Both the position numbers and the translations under genes were made by a program. The notes under the pieces were generated by a model. That model made no database searches, had not been told where the DNA came from, and worked only from the letters and a program-made list of their open reading frames with translations. A stretch of 64,000 bases of DNA from Dermatophagoides farinae (lineage: Eukaryota; Arthropoda; Arachnida; Sarcoptiformes; Pyroglyphidae): positions 3,599,001 through 3,663,000 of the forward strand of contig NC_134677.1 of NCBI RefSeq assembly GCF_024713945.1, read 5' to 3'. Shown here piece after piece: positions 39,467-53,793 of this stretch. Position 1 is the first letter of the stretch, and each line of letters starts with the position of its first letter.

Positions 39467-41646
39467 TTAGATGCAAATATCCTCACGACATGTTTCTAGG
39501 TAATCATAAGGATTCTGTGTTTGTTCATCCTGTACTATGTTCAATTCCATTTGTTTCTTTTTCGTTCGAGGTAATTTGAAATGACAGACACGAATATGTG
39601 TAATAACGGTGAAACGTTGTTCAGATGCATAACCACAGTCGGGCCATTTACATTTGAAACGTTTAAAATTTAAATGAATACGCACGTGATTCTTTAGGGC
39701 TGAATTATCGGCAAATGCTTTACCACAATCGGGCCATGAACAGGTATAATTTTTAATTTTGTGTAGACTGCTTTTATGACGTTGAAACCGTGAAGCGATT
39801 ATCAATTCACCACAAATAGGACATTTACGATGTCTTTGATGACGTAGTTTTTTATGATTAAGTAGATTTCTACGAAATTTCGATGTAAAATCACAATTTT
39901 CAAACGGACACCGATATTCGCCCTCTTCATGCATGATCCAAATGTGATTAGTAAGGCTATTGCGTGTTGGACAAAGTTTATCGCAAAATTTACAGGTCAA
40001 ATATTCGATCCTATGTTTTTCTCGAACATGTTGATTCAATTTTGATCTGTAAAAAAATTACAATTAGATATGATCGATTCACTTTGTGTTTATACTTACT
40101 TTTCTGTGAATGTTTCAGCGCAGGATTCGTTTGAACATTCAAAGATTGATGTGGATTTTTTCTTAGATTTAGACAAGAGTTCTTGTTTTTCATTGTCACA
40201 ATTATCATCACCAATTTCAATAGTATCATCATCTTTGTCATTATTGCTACCACCACCATCATCATGATCATGATCATCACCATCATCATCATCATCGTCA
40301 TCATTATCATCAGCTTCATTCGAACCAGAGGTTGGCGAATATGGAAGATCCTCTGAAACAGATTTCGGCTTTTTGCCTTTTGTTGTGGATTTTTTCTTCG
40401 ATGCTTTTTCTACATTGTCATGCATCCGTTTAATATGTTTATGTAAATATTTACGTCTTGCAAAACTTTTGCCACAATTACGGCAAGTAAAATGGTCTGT
40501 TGCACCATCCGGATTACTACAGATTGTTGATGGCCTATGTTCATCTTTAATATGTTGCCGTAATCGTGATACATTAGGAAACAATTGTTCACAGCCATCA
40601 ATTTCACACTGGAGTTTTAAATTCAAATGTTCATTTGACATATGTGAATCAAGTTCTTCTTTTCCATTGAACACTGCCTTACAGCCTTCGTATTGACAGG
40701 GTTGTACCTGTTGAACATGACGACGGTTTTCATGATCTTTTACCTGGGATAAAGACTTTGATCGATATCGGCAGCCTTCAAATTGGCAATGAAATTCAAC
40801 TAGCAACAAATCGGTGGCTGTGGTTCCAATCGATCCGGTAGACTGATCATCCTCTTGTTCTATGGTTGATACTTTGGTCGATGATCTCGAACGTTTTGAC
40901 TGACGACGTTTATCACCATCATCATTGGGAGGTCGTTTAGTTGCTTGCGTCTGTGAAAGATTGTCGGTTGAATGATGTTGTTGATTATCAGCCGAGGACA
41001 AAAGGCCATCCAAAAGAGTTGCATGAGCATCTTGTGGTTGACTTGAGGATGATTGCGATGGATTTGAATACAATAAATTAATCTGATGATGTGATTGGTC
41101 AGTTAATATTGATGCTGAATCATCATTCGAATTATGTGTTGAATCAGGTTCATGATTGATAACAACAATATCATTCGGAATTAGTTCCACAGCAATCGAA
41201 TCATTTTGATTGTGATGTTCATTGAACACCGTCATTTTATTACCGCTTTGGCAATTATCACGTTTAAATGGAAAATATGAATCCATATTCTCCAAATAGA
41301 ATCGTTCACGTTTATGAACAAAATCAAAAAATGACGAAGAATCAATCAGTTGAGCGAATTTTTCCGAACAGAATTGTATATCTTCACTGAGTTCGTAGAC
41401 CAACGATTTCGCAAGTTGAGTGGATGGTTCCACCGATTTATCATCCATCATTGAATCTAAATGTTTTTTCATATACATCGACATGTATCGAAAATGTAGT
41501 AGAAGATTAATAAATTGTTTCAATTGTTCAATGAATTTTTCACTTGATTTTTCGGACAATTGTGATGGAATTTGCATGATTTGCGGAACAGATTCGTCAT
41601 TATATTGAATAAAAAATTTAAGCAAATCATTTCGAGATTCCTCCAT
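39467..41646 (-). CDS. Ten-finger C2H2 zinc-finger protein
   Basis: Exons 41646-40100 and 40046-39467 (53-nt intron, phase 2) give 708 aa. Residues 1-120 are helical and charged; residues about 120-260 are Ser/Gln/Asp-rich. Four C2H2 fingers follow (FHCQFEGC, PCQYEGC, LQCEIDGC, FTCRNCGKSF starts), then a linker with a long Asp run, then six more (FECSNESC, LTCKFCDK, YRCPFENC, RKCPICGE, YTCSWPDCGKAF, FKCKWPDCGY). Finger 5 is split by the intron between its Cys and His pairs, and splicing restores it, which supports the exon model. Many fingers have the CX4C spacing and WPDC signature of TFIIIA/ZNF-type nucleic-acid binders. No specific orthologue is named; a DNA-binding nuclear role is the likely reading. 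Confidence 0.85.
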
Positions 41647-42136
41647 CCTTTATTTAAACGATTAGCTGAATAAAATTAAGGGCGAATGATAATGCCAGAA
41701 TAATTTAAAGAATTGAAAAGAATATATTGCCAGTATATTCATGGTCAGAAAAACCAAAACAAACGGGCATGATCCATACAAAAAGGACGTGTATTCGAAT
41801 TTTGGCCACATTAATTAAAGTGGGTCCTAATAAATTATGTGTATTAAGAACATTTTTCGATTGATACGATTGAAAACAACTTAGAATAAAGTACAACAGT
41901 GAAGGTATATAAAATCCTGAGATTAGTGCACCATTCCTATCTAAACAAACGTTTTATTCGAAGATTAAAAGTTGGTGTAAATTTGGTGTAAATGTAAATA
42001 AATTGAATTTTTTGTGGCCGTCTTCTACACGTACATGCAGATAATCAATCAAGTCGAAATAGTGACTTCCTTGATTTGCAGTGTTTTTCTTTTCTTTTCA
42101 TGTGATATTTTGGTTCAACTTTGAAATTTTCAACAA
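41647..42136. promoter_or_regulatory. Divergent promoter, C2H2 gene and TDP/makorin gene
   Basis: 490 nt between two divergent start codons. TATATAAAA at 41906-41914 (plus strand) would start the TDP/makorin-like transcript near 41940. The leader then contains an ATG directly followed by TGA (about 42100), a minimal start-stop uORF, unless a 5' UTR intron ending near 42080 (TTTGCAG) removes the upstream part. Confidence 0.45.
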
Positions 42137-43182
42137 ATGGATCAAAAATCGAAATCTGATAGTAAAAATGTTAATCGTGTGGCTATCTGTGAATGTTTGG
42201 GCAAATTACCAGTCAATGTACCGTTGGAAACCGATGGAACTTTGTACGTGCCAGTTAAGATTTTCGAAATTTGATTTTTGTATCTTACATAAATTCCATT
42301 TAACATGATTTCATTGACAGGTTAGTCTCAGTATTATCAGCTTTTTTTCCTGGTGCTGTCAATATACAATACATGATCGGAGTGAGCCAATGGCGTACAC
42401 CGCAAATCATCGACGGACGAATTCAAGAACCACCGTTCGATTTAGGTGGATGGAAATGTTGTAAATATTTTTATTGTATTATGATTAGAAAACAACTGTC
42501 AGATTTTGATGCAATCAAACATTATGACTCATTGTGTGCAAGAAATTTATGCCAAACTTATGTTCGTGATGGATTCTGTATGCAACAGATTCAGCAAAAT
42601 TGTTATTTCGTCCATGGAGATTTTTGCGACGACTGTCAACTATACACTTTACATCCATTTAATGCGGATTTGCGGCAAAAACACGAAATTGATTGTTTGG
42701 CAAAAAAAATGAAAAACCAAAAAATTGATATCGAAAATTGTCCAGAAAATAATGATCCCAGTGGAATCTATGAAAAATTAATTTCAGGTTCTATTTGTCC
42801 CCGATATGAACGATATGGCCAATGTAATGGGCAAGAAAAACAAAACTGCCACCTGATTCATGGTGATTTATGTGACATATGTGGATATTATTCATTACAT
42901 CCATTTTGTGAACTGGATCGTGAAAAACATACTAAAAAATGTATCGAAGAATTAGAGATGAAAAATACATGTTCAATTTGTTTAGAAATAATTGGTCAAA
43001 CACCCGAATCCGATCGTAACAATGGTGACAATAATGAATGTCAACGAAGTTTTGGTCGGTTGAAAAACTGTTTTCATACATTCTGTTTTAATTGTATACA
43101 AACTTGGCGTACGAAAAGTAATTCGATGGAATGTCCTATCTGTCGTGTACCTTCCGAATCTGTTATCAAAACTAATGATTAA
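42137..43182 (+). CDS. TDP-43-like N-terminal domain fused to makorin-type Cys/His modules and RING (E3 ligase-like)
   Basis: Exons 42137-42243 and 42321-43182 (77-nt intron GTACGT...GACAG, phase 2) give 322 aa. Residues about 13-92 align by pattern with the TDP-43 N-terminal domain: LPVNVPLETDGTLLVS (TDP-43 EPIEIPSEDDGTVLLS), AFFPGAVNIQY (AQFPGACGLRY), VSQW (VSQC), DGRIQEPPFDLGGW (EGILHAPDAGW) and KYFYCI (LVYVVN). The intron falls inside DGT-LL. Residues 113-161 and 195-243 are two makorin-type CX8CX7CX3H modules followed by HGDxCDxC...LHPF...H..C. Residues 253-310 are a C3HC4 RING (CSIC, CFHTFC, CPIC). Usual makorins have N-terminal CCCH fingers instead of the TDP-like domain; those are absent, as is the C-terminal CCCH finger. 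No RRM of TDP-43 is present. Predicted: an RNA-linked ubiquitin ligase that may oligomerise; function is inference. Confidence 0.8.
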
Positions 43183-43857
43183 ATAAGGCTCATTTTTTCA
43201 ACGAAATATTCAATATACAACCACCATACCAAACCAACCATTTTTATACCAAAAATAAATAAATTTTACAAATCTGTCAATATCTTGTATAATCATGAAT
43301 ATGTACCGAGTATTAAAAACATTTTTAAACAAATAAACGAAAATTATACATCCCAGAACATTTGATATTGATTCGATTTATTTGCCAAATACTTGGATCA
43401 TCATTATCGATAATGGTAATGATTGATTACTTCATTGAGAATTACATTTTCCTCGGTCATTTTTTTGGGTGTAGTAACACACATGTCTTTTAGACTTTGC
43501 TCATCTGGCTAAAATTTTATTTTATCTATTTGATTATTATGTGATATCAACCCACTGTTGTATGTTTAGAATTTATCACAGTTCCAATTAAGAAATTGTA
43601 ATAATTGTTTCATAGCAACCGGGAACAATTGTGGAGAAAAAACATCGATTTGTAATATTTTTTTTCCATTTTAACCATCATTTTCACTAATCCAAAAAAA
43701 ATAAAAATAAAAAATAACAATGAAAACATTTAATTGCAGTGAGGAGGGAATGATGTACGTCGTAAATCATTGATGAACAAATTCAAAAACTATCGTTAGA
43801 TTTGATCAGATGTTAATGTAAATATTTTTATTGAATGACATTTGAAAAAAATCCACT
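43183..43857. other. Spacer with decayed TDP-43-like segment before the second makorin copy
   Basis: The last ~100 nt (about 43738-43836) are recognisably homologous to the TDP-43-like coding segment of the upstream gene (about 42378-42481), with shared AAATCAT, GAATTCAA-like and GTAAATATTTTTATTG tracts. The copy has in-frame stops, so it is no longer coding. The rest of the spacer is AT-rich with no visible gene. Confidence 0.65.
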
Positions 43858-44565
43858 ATGTCCGATTTCGATGAATCTAATTATGAATCATTATGTGAGA
43901 CAAGTCTGTGCCAAACTTATGTTCGTGATGGATTCTGCATACAACAGACGCAACAGAATTGTTATTTCGTTCATGGAGATTTTTGCGACGAATGCCAACA
44001 ATATGCCTTACACCCATTTAATATTGATTTACGGAAACAACACGAAATCGATTGTATGATAAACAAATTGATGAAAAAATTGGATAATATTGAAATTGAT
44101 ACGGAAAAATTTAATGAACACAATGATATTGACGAAATATATGATATAGTTAAATCAGGTTCGATATGTCCTCACTATGAACGAAATGGCCGATGTAGTG
44201 AACAGGAAGAACAAAACTGTCAATTTATTCATGGTGATCGATGTGATATATGCGGATATTATTCATTGCATCCATTTTGTGAACAGGATCGTGAAAGACA
44301 TATTAAAAAATGTATCGAAGATTTTGAAATGAAACAAACCTGTGCAATTTGTTTAGAAATAATGGGTCAAACACCGGAATCCAATCGTAACAATGGTGAT
44401 CATGATGAATGTGAACAAATAGAAAAAAGTTTTGGTCTAATGAAAAACTGTTGTCATATATTCTGTTGGGATTGTATACAAACCTGGCGTACTTCAAGCA
44501 ATGCCGTAGAATGTCCAATATGTCGGATACCTTCTGAAACTGTTATAAAAACTGTATTTCAATGA
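43858..44565 (+). CDS. Makorin-like RING protein, tandem copy without the TDP-43-like domain
   Basis: A 235-aa single-exon protein, clearly a tandem duplicate of the gene just upstream. Shared stretches include LCQTYVRDGFC, NCYFVHGDFCD, CDICGYYSLHPFCE and CAICLEIMGQTPES. It has two makorin-type Cys/His modules and a C3HC4 RING (CAIC, CCHIFCWDC, CPIC) with all zinc ligands kept. It starts MSDFDESNYESLC, the counterpart of LSDFDAIKHYDSLC in the first copy, so only the part after the TDP-43-like domain is translated. The open frame is intact with conservative changes, suggesting it is a working gene. Predicted E3 ubiquitin ligase activity comes from the RING family. It may have a 5' UTR in the decayed region. 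Confidence 0.85.
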   Translation: MSDFDESNYESLCETSLCQTYVRDGFCIQQTQQNCYFVHGDFCDECQQYALHPFNIDLRKQHEIDCMINKLMKKLDNIEIDTEKFNEHNDIDEIYDIVKSGSICPHYERNGRCSEQEEQNCQFIHGDRCDICGYYSLHPFCEQDRERHIKKCIEDFEMKQTCAICLEIMGQTPESNRNNGDHDECEQIEKSFGLMKNCCHIFCWDCIQTWRTSSNAVECPICRIPSETVIKTVFQ

Positions 44566-45166
44566 GTGTCATTTTCAATAAAATAATTTGACAAAATAAA
44601 CTGTGAAAAAATCTATTGTGAAAAAATTGACTAAAATAGTTTTTGACAAATAGTAGTAAAAGTTAAATAATAATATTATATTATTATTATCCATGATGTT
44701 ATTCCATGATGCCCTTATTATCATTATCAGATTCATACAACAGTGGATAAATATACATGCTGATAGGAACATGTATGATGTGTATGTGTACACCTACAGA
44801 TTTCTTTTTCGAAGAAATATCATCATCATACATAAAATTTTTTTTTTTTCATCATTACATATAGATTAGCGGACGAAAATTTAAATGAACTCGTGAAAAT
44901 TTTTAAATGTTATCAATGTTATGTGCTCCGTCTATCAAAATGAAAATGGAATTCGCATGTGCATGCGTGTAACGTAAGCCAATCGATTTCAGTGTTAAAT
45001 GGAATGATGATGATGATGATGATGAATCCATTAGAGACAGTACAAATCATAGTTGTCAATCGTTTTTCAACAGGTTCTATTTCTATTTTGCAACTTTTTG
45101 AAACATCGCATTTTTTTCAACAATATATAAAATTTTTTAATTAAATTTTTTACATTTTCCGAATCT
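44566..45166. other. Spacer with ATF4-like gene promoter
   Basis: No gene. TATATAAAA at about 45124-45132 is a likely TATA box for the bZIP gene, placing transcription start near 45155. A (GAT)7 run lies at 45005-45024. Confidence 0.5.
45124..45132 (+). promoter_or_regulatory. TATA box of the bZIP gene
   Basis: TATATAAAA about 30 nt upstream of a T/C-rich start region and about 40 nt upstream of the uORF start. The upstream exon would then be only about 30 nt long. Confidence 0.45.
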
Positions 45167-45363
45167 ATGATTAATCGATATCTGGTAAGTAGGATTTGTT
45201 CCATAAATGTTTGTCATTTTAAATTGTAGAGATTTCGGACAAAATGACGCAACATTTTTTTCACTCATTGTCATATGAAAGTTTCTAGTTTTCAATATCA
45301 TAATTATCAATACTCATAAATATTGTTTATTATCAGGAGGTTAGATATCTGTCTTTCTGGTAA
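45167..45363 (+). promoter_or_regulatory. Spliced 14-codon upstream ORF in the bZIP leader
   Basis: ATG at 45167 opens six codons (to 45184) ending at a strong donor (CTG|GTAAGTAGG). The acceptor TTATCAG|GAGG at 45336/45337 joins them in frame to eight more codons and a TAA at 45361-45363. Only 5 nt then remain before the main ATG at 45369. The layout fits translational control by a uORF, as known for ATF4 mRNAs; the ATF4 link is inference. Confidence 0.55.
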
Positions 45364-45368
45364 AAACA

Positions 45369-46345
45369 ATGGCCGGTGATAATGGCACACCAGAACTGAT
45401 GGATTTTACATTAAATCAAACATCTGAACAGATCTTCAATGTTGCAGCTATGTTTGCTGAAAAAGATACTCCAGAACTTAACAAAGAATTGGATGAATCA
45501 TCGAAAGGATCCTCATCAGAGACGATAACAACAATAGATATTGATAATGAAATAAATTTTGACGAATTTCAACGAAAAGAGACTACTTGCAGTCTGGAAT
45601 CGAATATTTCTGGAACACATATCAAACATATAAAAGATTTTTGCTTCTCTCAAAGTCAATATATGCAAAATTCTCCCAATGATCTCATGACCAGGAACGA
45701 TGTTCCAGAAGTTGATTACGACACTCCTACATACACTGAGCTTCTTTATTATTCAGACCTCGAACGTGATATTCGAATGCAAAATTATTTATCTCGTCTA
45801 GATTACAATAACAATAATGTGATAAAACCATTGGAAAATCCATTGATCAATACGGAACAACAAGCTTCATCGGTTTGTGAAACAATGACAACATCAACAT
45901 CTTCGAAATTTGATGACGGTAATGATTTGTCTGTGGATTCTTATCATCAACCATCACACGGTAAGCTTGTGTTAATTTATGTTAATCTGAAATTTCTAAT
46001 AATCATTACCATTTAGTCTTGTATAAAGAACCAAAAACTGCCACTCTCAAACATCGAAATCCAAACATATCAAAAAGTGCCAATTTATTAAATCAAAATA
46101 AACGAAAATCTCAAAAATCGCAATGTATTAAGAATCGTCAAGAATTTTTAATGGATAGACGTCAAAGAAATTGTGTGGCAGCTCGTAAAGCTCGCCAGAA
46201 ACGAAAGAAAGAAGCTGATGAGATAGAACTGGAAAAAAAGAAACAAGAAAAAAAAAATCAAGCTCTTAAAAACCAAGTCGCAGAACTTGAAAAAGAAATC
46301 AGTTATTTAAATGAACACATTAGGAAGAGGAATGCAATTGTTTGA
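45369..46345 (+). CDS. bZIP transcription factor, ATF4/cryptocephal-like
   Basis: Exons 45369-45960 and 46017-46345 (56-nt intron, phase 1) give 306 aa, plus a non-coding or uORF exon upstream. Residues 1-195 are acidic and Ser/Thr-rich, like a transactivation region, and include DDGNDLSVDS near 182-191, which vaguely recalls a beta-TrCP phosphodegron. Residues about 228-258 are the basic region with RRQRNCVAARKARQKRKKE (Asn249 and Arg257 at the DNA-contact positions). The zipper follows, with LEKKKQEKKNQALKNQVAEL and EKEISYLNEHI. The stretch EKKNQALKxxxxxLEKEIxYL closely follows ATF4 (EKKNEALK...LAKEIQYL). C/EBP-gamma/CHOP-like is the alternative because of NCVAARKAR. ATF4 drives the amino-acid and ER-stress response. 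It is convergent with the DTD gene. Confidence 0.75.
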
Positions 46346-52225: not shown

Positions 52226-52464
52226 ATCTTGTACACAATAATAAACAATATATATCAAATTCAGTTCTGAAAAATAAACGAAAATTCAGATGTGTCTATT
52301 TTAACCTAGATATCAACCACGATTGCATCTATTCGAACCAAAAAGTTCTATGTTTTGTATACAAAATCGAATAATAAAATGCAATTGAATCAAATTAATC
52401 TGAATCATTCATGTTAAAAATTAATGTAATTTGTTTTAAAAAATTGTTTGTTCTTCATTTAAAA

Positions 52465-53793
52465 ATGTCTGGCTCGAAAATTGAAATTGAATCCATGGAT
52501 GTTGATGATCTTTGTCCTGTACAGGTTCAAAAAACAAATACAAATACGAAACCGCAAGCAAAAACAGATTCAAAGCATGAAGATGGAATTCAAATCAATG
52601 TACAATCATCTTTATCGTCTCTGTTGATAGATTCTACGGAAAAATTACCCAATCGCAAAATTTTAAAAGCTAAACGTAATTTTTCAAGAGTCCAGACTAA
52701 AAACGGTGACCATAATCATTATTTAATACTTGTTATCGATACGAATGTTTTAGTTGAAGATTTAAACCTTTTAAAAAGATTAATAATCAAATTTAATATC
52801 AACAATGTACAAATTCATAAAATTATTATACCATGGACTGTGATACAAGAATTGGATGGTCTGAAATTGGATCGGGATAATTATCTGGTACGAAAAGTTC
52901 AAAATGCCATACGGTTCATTAATGAACAACTAAAATTGGGTGAACACTCAAGATTAATTTGTCTGGAAAAGTCATTTCAAAATCAAAATGAAAAAGACGT
53001 TTTTAGCAATAATGATGATCTTATACTTGGGTTTTGTATTCAATTTAACAAAAATCCGCAAAAATTTCTGCCCACGCTCACCATTGAAAAACAATGGATA
53101 TTAATTGCATTGATAACCAATGATATAAATTTACAAAATAAAGCTATTGTTCATCAAATGAATTGCTATAGTTTGAAAGAATTGATACAAAAATACAAAT
53201 CACCTGATAAAACGATCCAAATTAACAGCAAGCGTGAGGCGGCCAATTCAACTGACAAGTCCAAAAGGGTTAAAACTGACATTTCCGCTACGAGTTTTCG
53301 AAATCCCTCAAAACGTTTTCGAACAATCAGCCAGTCATCATCTGTCGACCTCGTTAAAGAATTTCCTCGAAAGAATCATCTCACTACGGTGTCAACAAAA
53401 ATGGATTCACCATCACCAAGTCCTATGGATCCAATGACTAGTGGCTCTTGTAAAGAATTGGATTCGAAATACGCTCTCGAAACTCGCCTAGCTGAATTTA
53501 TTATTGCAAAATTCAAGGAAACATTTGGCAATGATTTGTGGCAATCAACTTTGGGTGTATATTCACCTGAAAGCGCAACATTGATCGATTCATTGAGAAA
53601 ATTCAAATCAAATTGGGTGGGTGTATTTTCTGATTATTTTCGTCGCGATAAAAAGGTCATACAGCTCGTCAATGAAATGCTGCAATCGGTAAATAATCGT
53701 ACTGCAGAAAATTGTGAAAAACTTTTACAAATGATTGAATTGGCATTTGAAAGTCAAGTTGCTCAGCGTGAAAATAAATGGAATGATGAATAA
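52465..53793 (+). CDS. SWT1: SWT1-like PIN-domain RNA endonuclease
   Basis: A 442-aa single-exon protein; ATG at 52465 (MSGSKIEIESMDVDD) is preferred over the in-frame 52411 ATG, which would add a short Phe/Leu/Lys segment. Residues about 85-250 are a PIN nuclease domain: LILVIDTNVLVEDL (catalytic Asp92), IIPWTVIQELDGLK (Glu119) and LIALITNDINLQNKAI (Asp in TND). The order and the PWxVIQELDGLK block match SWT1/C1orf26, the endoribonuclease that monitors nuclear mRNP quality control at the nuclear pore. After a Ser/Lys-rich linker, residues about 340-435 (LETRLAEFIIAKFKETFGNDLW ... VFSDYFRRDKKVIQLVNEML) form the helical C-terminal domain. It is convergent with the integrin alpha gene. Confidence 0.88.
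   Translation: MSGSKIEIESMDVDDLCPVQVQKTNTNTKPQAKTDSKHEDGIQINVQSSLSSLLIDSTEKLPNRKILKAKRNFSRVQTKNGDHNHYLILVIDTNVLVEDLNLLKRLIIKFNINNVQIHKIIIPWTVIQELDGLKLDRDNYLVRKVQNAIRFINEQLKLGEHSRLICLEKSFQNQNEKDVFSNNDDLILGFCIQFNKNPQKFLPTLTIEKQWILIALITNDINLQNKAIVHQMNCYSLKELIQKYKSPDKTIQINSKREAANSTDKSKRVKTDISATSFRNPSKRFRTISQSSSVDLVKEFPRKNHLTTVSTKMDSPSPSPMDPMTSGSCKELDSKYALETRLAEFIIAKFKETFGNDLWQSTLGVYSPESATLIDSLRKFKSNWVGVFSDYFRRDKKVIQLVNEMLQSVNNRTAENCEKLLQMIELAFESQVAQRENKWNDE

Follow-up and report, generated by a model that had tools for sequence, protein, structure and literature searches.

The 64,000-nt stretch of DNA analysed here (the window), positions 3,599,001-3,663,000 of the forward strand of contig NC_134677.1 in the Dermatophagoides farinae assembly GCF_024713945.1, contains a gene in which an N-terminal domain (NTD) of the type found in TDP-43, the neurodegeneration protein, is joined to a makorin-derived RING protein. 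This gene, hereafter the fusion, consists of two exons (42137-42243 and 42321-43182; all coordinates are window positions) that together form a 322-amino-acid frame with its ATG at 42137 and its stop at 43180-43182. The exons are separated by a GT-AG intron of 77 nt (42244-42320, GTACGT...TTGACAG). Read-through of the unspliced intron leads to a stop, and an in-frame stop is located five codons upstream of the ATG. The single reading frame that a first-pass annotation of the window had obtained by removing a 77-nt intron was thus recovered with exactly the same coordinates. Exon 2 encodes the rest of the NTD, two Cys/His modules, the RING and the stop in a single open frame; a stop-free run of 287 codons would arise with a probability of about 6e-11 in random DNA matching the window in base composition. 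We consider it highly probable that this architecture represents a real gene. The features of the fusion and of its tandem copy are the following, with profile positions referring to the Pfam family TDP-43_N (PF18694).

42137-42243, plus strand: exon 1, encoding residues 1-35 plus two bases of codon 36; NTD residues 14-36 correspond to profile positions 1-23.
42244-42320, plus strand: intron within the NTD; profile positions 23 and 24 join across the 77-nt gap.
42321-42480, plus strand: NTD part of exon 2, encoding residues 37-89 after the final base of codon 36; corresponds to profile positions 24-73.
42321-43182, plus strand: entire exon 2, uninterrupted frame to the stop.
42550-42615, plus strand: first C3H-like finger, residues 113-134, C-x8-C-x7-C-x3-H.
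42625-42696, plus strand: first makorin-type CysHis module, residues 138-161; assigned by motif and by match to the makorin-3 structure 9p2q (E 0.001).
42796-42861, plus strand: second C3H-like finger, residues 195-216; assigned by motif.
42871-42942, plus strand: second makorin-type CysHis module, residues 220-243; assigned by motif and by match to 9p2q (E 8.1e-5).
42970-43143, plus strand: C3HC4 RING, residues 253-310; assigned by motif (8/8 ligands) and by zf-C3HC4 (27.3 bits).
43713-43851, plus strand: decayed piece of NTD exon 2 on the 5′ side of the tandem copy, aligning to 42361-42495, with stops and indels.
43858-44565, plus strand: tandem copy, 235 amino acids, with the same modules and RING, motifs intact, and no NTD.

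The homology to the TDP-43 NTD, which the first-pass annotation had proposed, was confirmed by the profile search. When residues 1-110 were scanned, residues 14-89 matched positions 1-73 of the 74 positions of PF18694 with 38.3 bits (E 1.2e-9), clearly above the gathering score of 27.1 bits; the whole 322-amino-acid protein scored 35.4 bits. In a phmmer search against PDB chains, ten rows were listed at a limit of E 10: the top eight are TDP-43, with 6b1g_B as the best (E 2.2e-7), and the last two are unrelated proteins (E 0.43 and 0.45). The fusion NTD shares 23 of 64 aligned residues with human TDP-43. Of the 22 positions outside the polymer interface with a hydrophobic residue in human TDP-43, 19 have one in the fusion too, as expected if the ubiquitin/DIX-like fold of the domain is preserved. 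No RRM is found among the ten Pfam families listed for the fusion up to E 10. An AlphaFold2 prediction covering the exon-2 residues only, made from two rows of which the second was the copy, had a mean predicted local distance difference test (pLDDT) of 35.1 and a predicted TM-score (pTM) of 0.21 and was not used.

The intron is located inside the domain, and the two halves of the NTD can be scanned apart. On its own, the exon-1 piece scored 12.5 bits (E 0.14) over profile positions 1-23, and the NTD piece from exon 2 scored 13.1 bits (E 0.093) over positions 24-73. PF18694 was the sole family listed in both cases, and neither half is significant by itself. The matches of the two halves adjoin in the profile, and the boundary between them coincides exactly with the GT-AG junction, which makes the intron credible. 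When the exon-2 frame was scanned without exon 1, the RING part included, TDP-43_N did not appear among the matches up to E 10. This counts against the intron and the domain call, and it means that recognition of the domain depends on the splice. It is nevertheless very unlikely that two separate genes, or the two sides of an assembly joint, have been read as one, because a single uninterrupted exon carries both the remainder of the NTD and the RING, and because the same junction recurs, in decayed form, at the tandem copy.

The NTD is followed by two units, each composed of a C3H-like finger and a CysHis module (residues 113-161 and 195-243), and by the C3HC4 RING, in which all eight zinc ligands are present. 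The RING exceeded the cut-off of zf-C3HC4 (27.3 bits, cut-off 21), and the remaining RING models listed for the fusion stayed below their own cut-offs. A PDB search with the 215-amino-acid region placed the viral RING domain 1chc at the top (E 3e-5), and most of its 44 rows are other RING proteins; the RING alone is therefore not makorin-specific. Judged from the sequence, the makorin specificity comes from the CysHis neighbours of the RING. In the same search the second module matched the makorin-3 CysHis structure 9p2q with E 8.1e-5. The first module alone matched 9p2q with E 0.001, the next PDB rows being at E 0.18 and 0.34. The spacing C-x2-C-x5-H-x9-H-x3-C occurs four times in the six frames of the 64-kb window, each time in the fusion or in the tandem copy.

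The C3H-like fingers match weakly. Both show the unusual spacing C-x8-C-x7-C-x3-H. Pfam zf-CCCH was not listed for the fusion and appeared with E 3.3 for the tandem copy, and the two modules scanned alone listed 0 families. A C3H finger after the RING was not found: the three forward frames of 43100-43870 and 44480-45370 contain no unsplit C3H-like motif, and the stop of the fusion lies 12 residues past the last Cys of the RING. The tripeptide F-x-P, of interest in the context of PAM2, occurs once in the fusion protein, at residue 44 within the NTD. The description of this part as a makorin-type RING protein in the first-pass annotation therefore holds for the CysHis modules and the C3HC4 RING, and does not extend to a C-terminal C3H finger, to the spacing of the fingers or to a Pfam zf-CCCH match. 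The fusion protein is makorin-derived. Its gene contains the C3H-CysHis unit twice (42550-42942), and the two units align without gaps over 52 residues, which suggests an internal duplication.

The tandem copy is 67% identical to fusion residues 92-320 in tblastn. The decayed segment in front of it aligned to NTD exon 2 with a score of 93, against a maximum of 37 among the 200 dinucleotide-Markov shuffles used in all flank similarity tests (0/200 reached 93). Read in the frame of the fusion, with the indels falling between three gap-free blocks, the relic comprises 35 whole codons, of which 11 are identical to those of the NTD, 4 differ synonymously, 15 differ nonsynonymously and 5 are stops. 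The relic upstream of the copy repeats the junction, and the NTD-RING junction is therefore older than the tandem duplication. No similarity was detected between the upstream flank of the copy and exon 1 plus the intron (score 32, shuffle mean 32.1) or the whole of 41950-42360 (39, mean 39.0), and none was detected for the 3′ flank (39, mean 38.8). For the initial 40 bases of exon 2, the score against the upstream flank of the copy was 20, a value reached by 12 of the 200 shuffles and not clearly significant. From these alignments, the copy either lost its NTD or never had a complete one. Most simply, the duplication would have started within NTD exon 2, which would make the fusion the parent; alternatively, the NTD of the copy may have been lost by decay.

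The makorin part has evolved under purifying selection. Over 229 codons, the fusion and the copy differ by 0.189 nonsynonymous (dN) and 0.568 synonymous (dS) substitutions per site, giving an omega of 0.333 (bootstrap 0.225-0.49). For the NTD, neutral simulations were started from the present-day sequence and only stops were counted. At 0.28 substitutions per site, a branch length corresponding to half of the dS, an unconstrained NTD (residues 1-92) stayed stop-free in 1.1% of the simulations, and at 0.1 substitutions per site in 14.6%; for the exon-2 part of the NTD alone these values are 5.7% and 27.5%. Differences between the NTD and the relic affect 4 of 35 second codon positions versus 23 of 73 first and third positions (Fisher p 0.032). 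Taken as suggestive and not as proof, these numbers point to maintenance of the NTD itself.

They also bear on the possibility that the gene is decaying or is in effect NTD-less, with the makorin part alone being made, through a start at 42481 or by the copy, and the NTD surviving as a remnant. The copy does without a working NTD, and translation from the in-frame ATG at 42481 would give a product without the NTD. However, the frame, the splice sites and the start of the NTD are all intact, and without constraint residues 1-92 would have remained stop-free only in the small fractions of simulations given above, depending on branch length. We regard this explanation as improbable. The ATG in question (42481-42483) encodes residue 90 and lies directly before the part that aligns with the start of the copy; the product starting there would be makorin-like.

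The polymerisation of human TDP-43 provides a reference for the residues of the fusion NTD. As described in PMC5491494, one face formed by N45, S48, R52, R55 and N76 meets another formed by E14, E17, E21 and Q34; the head-to-tail interface residues E14, E17, E21, R52 and R55 are called conserved there, and the double mutations E17A/E21A or R52A/R55A are reported to abolish polymerisation. The single mutations Y4R, E17R and S48E are each reported to disrupt assembly (PMC5830921). The interface was mapped onto the fusion through the printed PDB alignment, beyond whose end human N76 lies. At the positions of N45, S48, R52 and R55 the fusion carries I55, S58, R61 and Q64, and at those of E14, E17, E21 and Q34 it carries L24, N27, E31 and F44, while Y4 is aligned with R. 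Three of the eight mapped polar interface residues (E21, S48 and R52) are thus kept, as are two of the five residues of the charge interface (E21 and R52). The S48/R52 face retains 2/4 of its mapped polar residues and the Y4/E14/E17/E21/Q34 face 1/4, with Y4 aligned with R.

Canonical self-polymerisation of the fusion NTD is doubtful, because conservation at its interface does not exceed that in the rest of the domain. The first-pass annotation had viewed the protein as a self-assembling ubiquitin ligase, in which the NTD would polymerise head to tail with itself and cluster the RINGs. This is weakened by the replacement of five of the eight mapped polar residues, on both faces. Moreover, E17 reads N and Y4 is aligned with R, on the very face where E17R or Y4R alone is reported to disrupt human assembly. 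In favour of self-assembly are the homology to a known polymerising domain, the retention of E21, S48 and R52, and the hydrophobic residues that replace E14 (L), Q34 (F) and N45 (I), which could make a different interface. On balance we find it rather unlikely.

We propose, tentatively and at less than even confidence, that partner docking on TDP-43-type NTDs is the leading mechanism and the most likely role of the fusion. The intron-bearing NTD of a TDP-43-type gene would have been placed before a shortened makorin-type RING gene, giving rise to a chimeric gene that encodes a predicted ligase. The RING would recruit a ubiquitin-conjugating enzyme (E2), and the NTD would serve as a targeting tag: through NTD-NTD contact it would bring the ligase to TDP-43 or to other NTD-bearing ribonucleoproteins. 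Contact with TDP-43 itself, which the first-pass annotation had suggested, is possible. The docked partners, or the chimera itself, would then be ubiquitinated. The tandem copy, having no NTD, would be an untargeted version of the same ligase. A one-faced NTD could still bind a partner, since the Y4R and S48E mutants of TDP-43 are reported to form an asymmetric dimer with each other and not chains (PMC5830921). The partner NTD may have changed as well. If the fusion NTD docks at all, capping of one end of a chain of partners would be more likely than formation of a chain of its own. A more specific version, in which the ligase caps TDP-43 chains via its one-faced NTD, ubiquitinates the end subunit and so places chain length or TDP-43 level under the control of a protein made out of TDP-43, is possible and in our judgement unlikely.

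Several observations weigh against docking. Identity at the interface (4/11) is about that of the other aligned positions (19/53), with no special conservation. The better-kept face is damaged too (N45 to I, R55 to Q). The pairing of fusion R14 with human Y4 rests on the alignment end of one PDB row, 6b1g_B, the other two printed rows starting later; 6b1g_B is the Y4R mutant itself, and the R-R match may have extended the end of the alignment. A further explanation, unlikely in our view, is that the NTD drifted to a module with a ubiquitin-like fold and without TDP-43 contact. Such a module could be autoinhibitory or provide an E2-side or other protein-protein contact, and the ubiquitin-like domain of parkin offers an analogy for an autoinhibitory or E2-side element. 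The interface is not specially conserved though most of the other hydrophobic positions are, which speaks for such drift.

Like TDP-43 (TARDBP/TBPH), the fusion matches PF18694 above the cut-off across nearly the whole domain and keeps the hydrophobic pattern. Unlike TDP-43, in which two RRMs follow the NTD, it has a RING after the NTD and no listed RRM, and by this domain content it is not a TDP-43. With the makorins (MKRN1-4, Drosophila Mkrn1) it shares a CysHis module of makorin-3 spacing that adjoins a C3HC4 RING. It differs from them in its doubled C3H-CysHis unit, the C-x8-C-x7-C-x3-H spacing, the NTD replacing further N-terminal fingers and the lack of a C3H finger after the RING; a RING-C3H pair has been reported in all Mkrn proteins (PMC3022923). 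Drosophila Mkrn1 is reported to bind RNA via its N-terminal ZnF1 (PMC7001992). RNA binding by the C3H motifs of the fusion is uncertain because of their unusual spacing. A further protein for comparison is Znf179, a RING ligase that is titled an E3 ligase for TDP-43 and is reported to polyubiquitinate it (PMC6223059). In contrast to the fusion, no TDP-43 NTD is mentioned in the available record of Znf179. No description of a TDP-43 NTD paired with a makorin-type RING was found among the titles and abstract starts listed from an open-licence library, protein databases being outside the scope of that search. Short-peptide-pattern scans of collections of viral and prokaryotic contigs gave 13 and 59 matches in viral_contigs and 95 in genome_contigs, with 0 confirmed relatives in each scan, a result with no bearing on other mites, and PHROGs listed 0 families for the exon-2 frame.

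Several other frames are found in the window. A zinc-finger gene on the minus strand (39467-41649) is the divergent neighbour of the fusion, about 490 bp from its ATG. Its frame 40096-41649 narrowly reaches zf-C2H2 with 25.9 bits (cut-off 25.2), and the adjoining 39467-40057 is similar by eye. On the plus strand, an uninterrupted 416-amino-acid frame at 18845-20095 matches aldehyde dehydrogenase (E 2.4e-140, profile positions 73-461 of 461), and a 464-amino-acid frame at 52399-53793 contains a PIN domain (PIN_4, E 4.2e-23).

NTD-driven assembly of TDP-43 is reported to be needed for its splicing function and to counteract aggregation (PMC5491494). If the proposed docking is true, a natural ligase carrying the NTD would show that this domain has been reused in evolution as a targeting module that can be moved between proteins, and it would point to a way of directing ubiquitination to TDP-43 in its assembled state. 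With the tandem pair, in which the fusion has the NTD and the copy does not, nature already provides a comparison.
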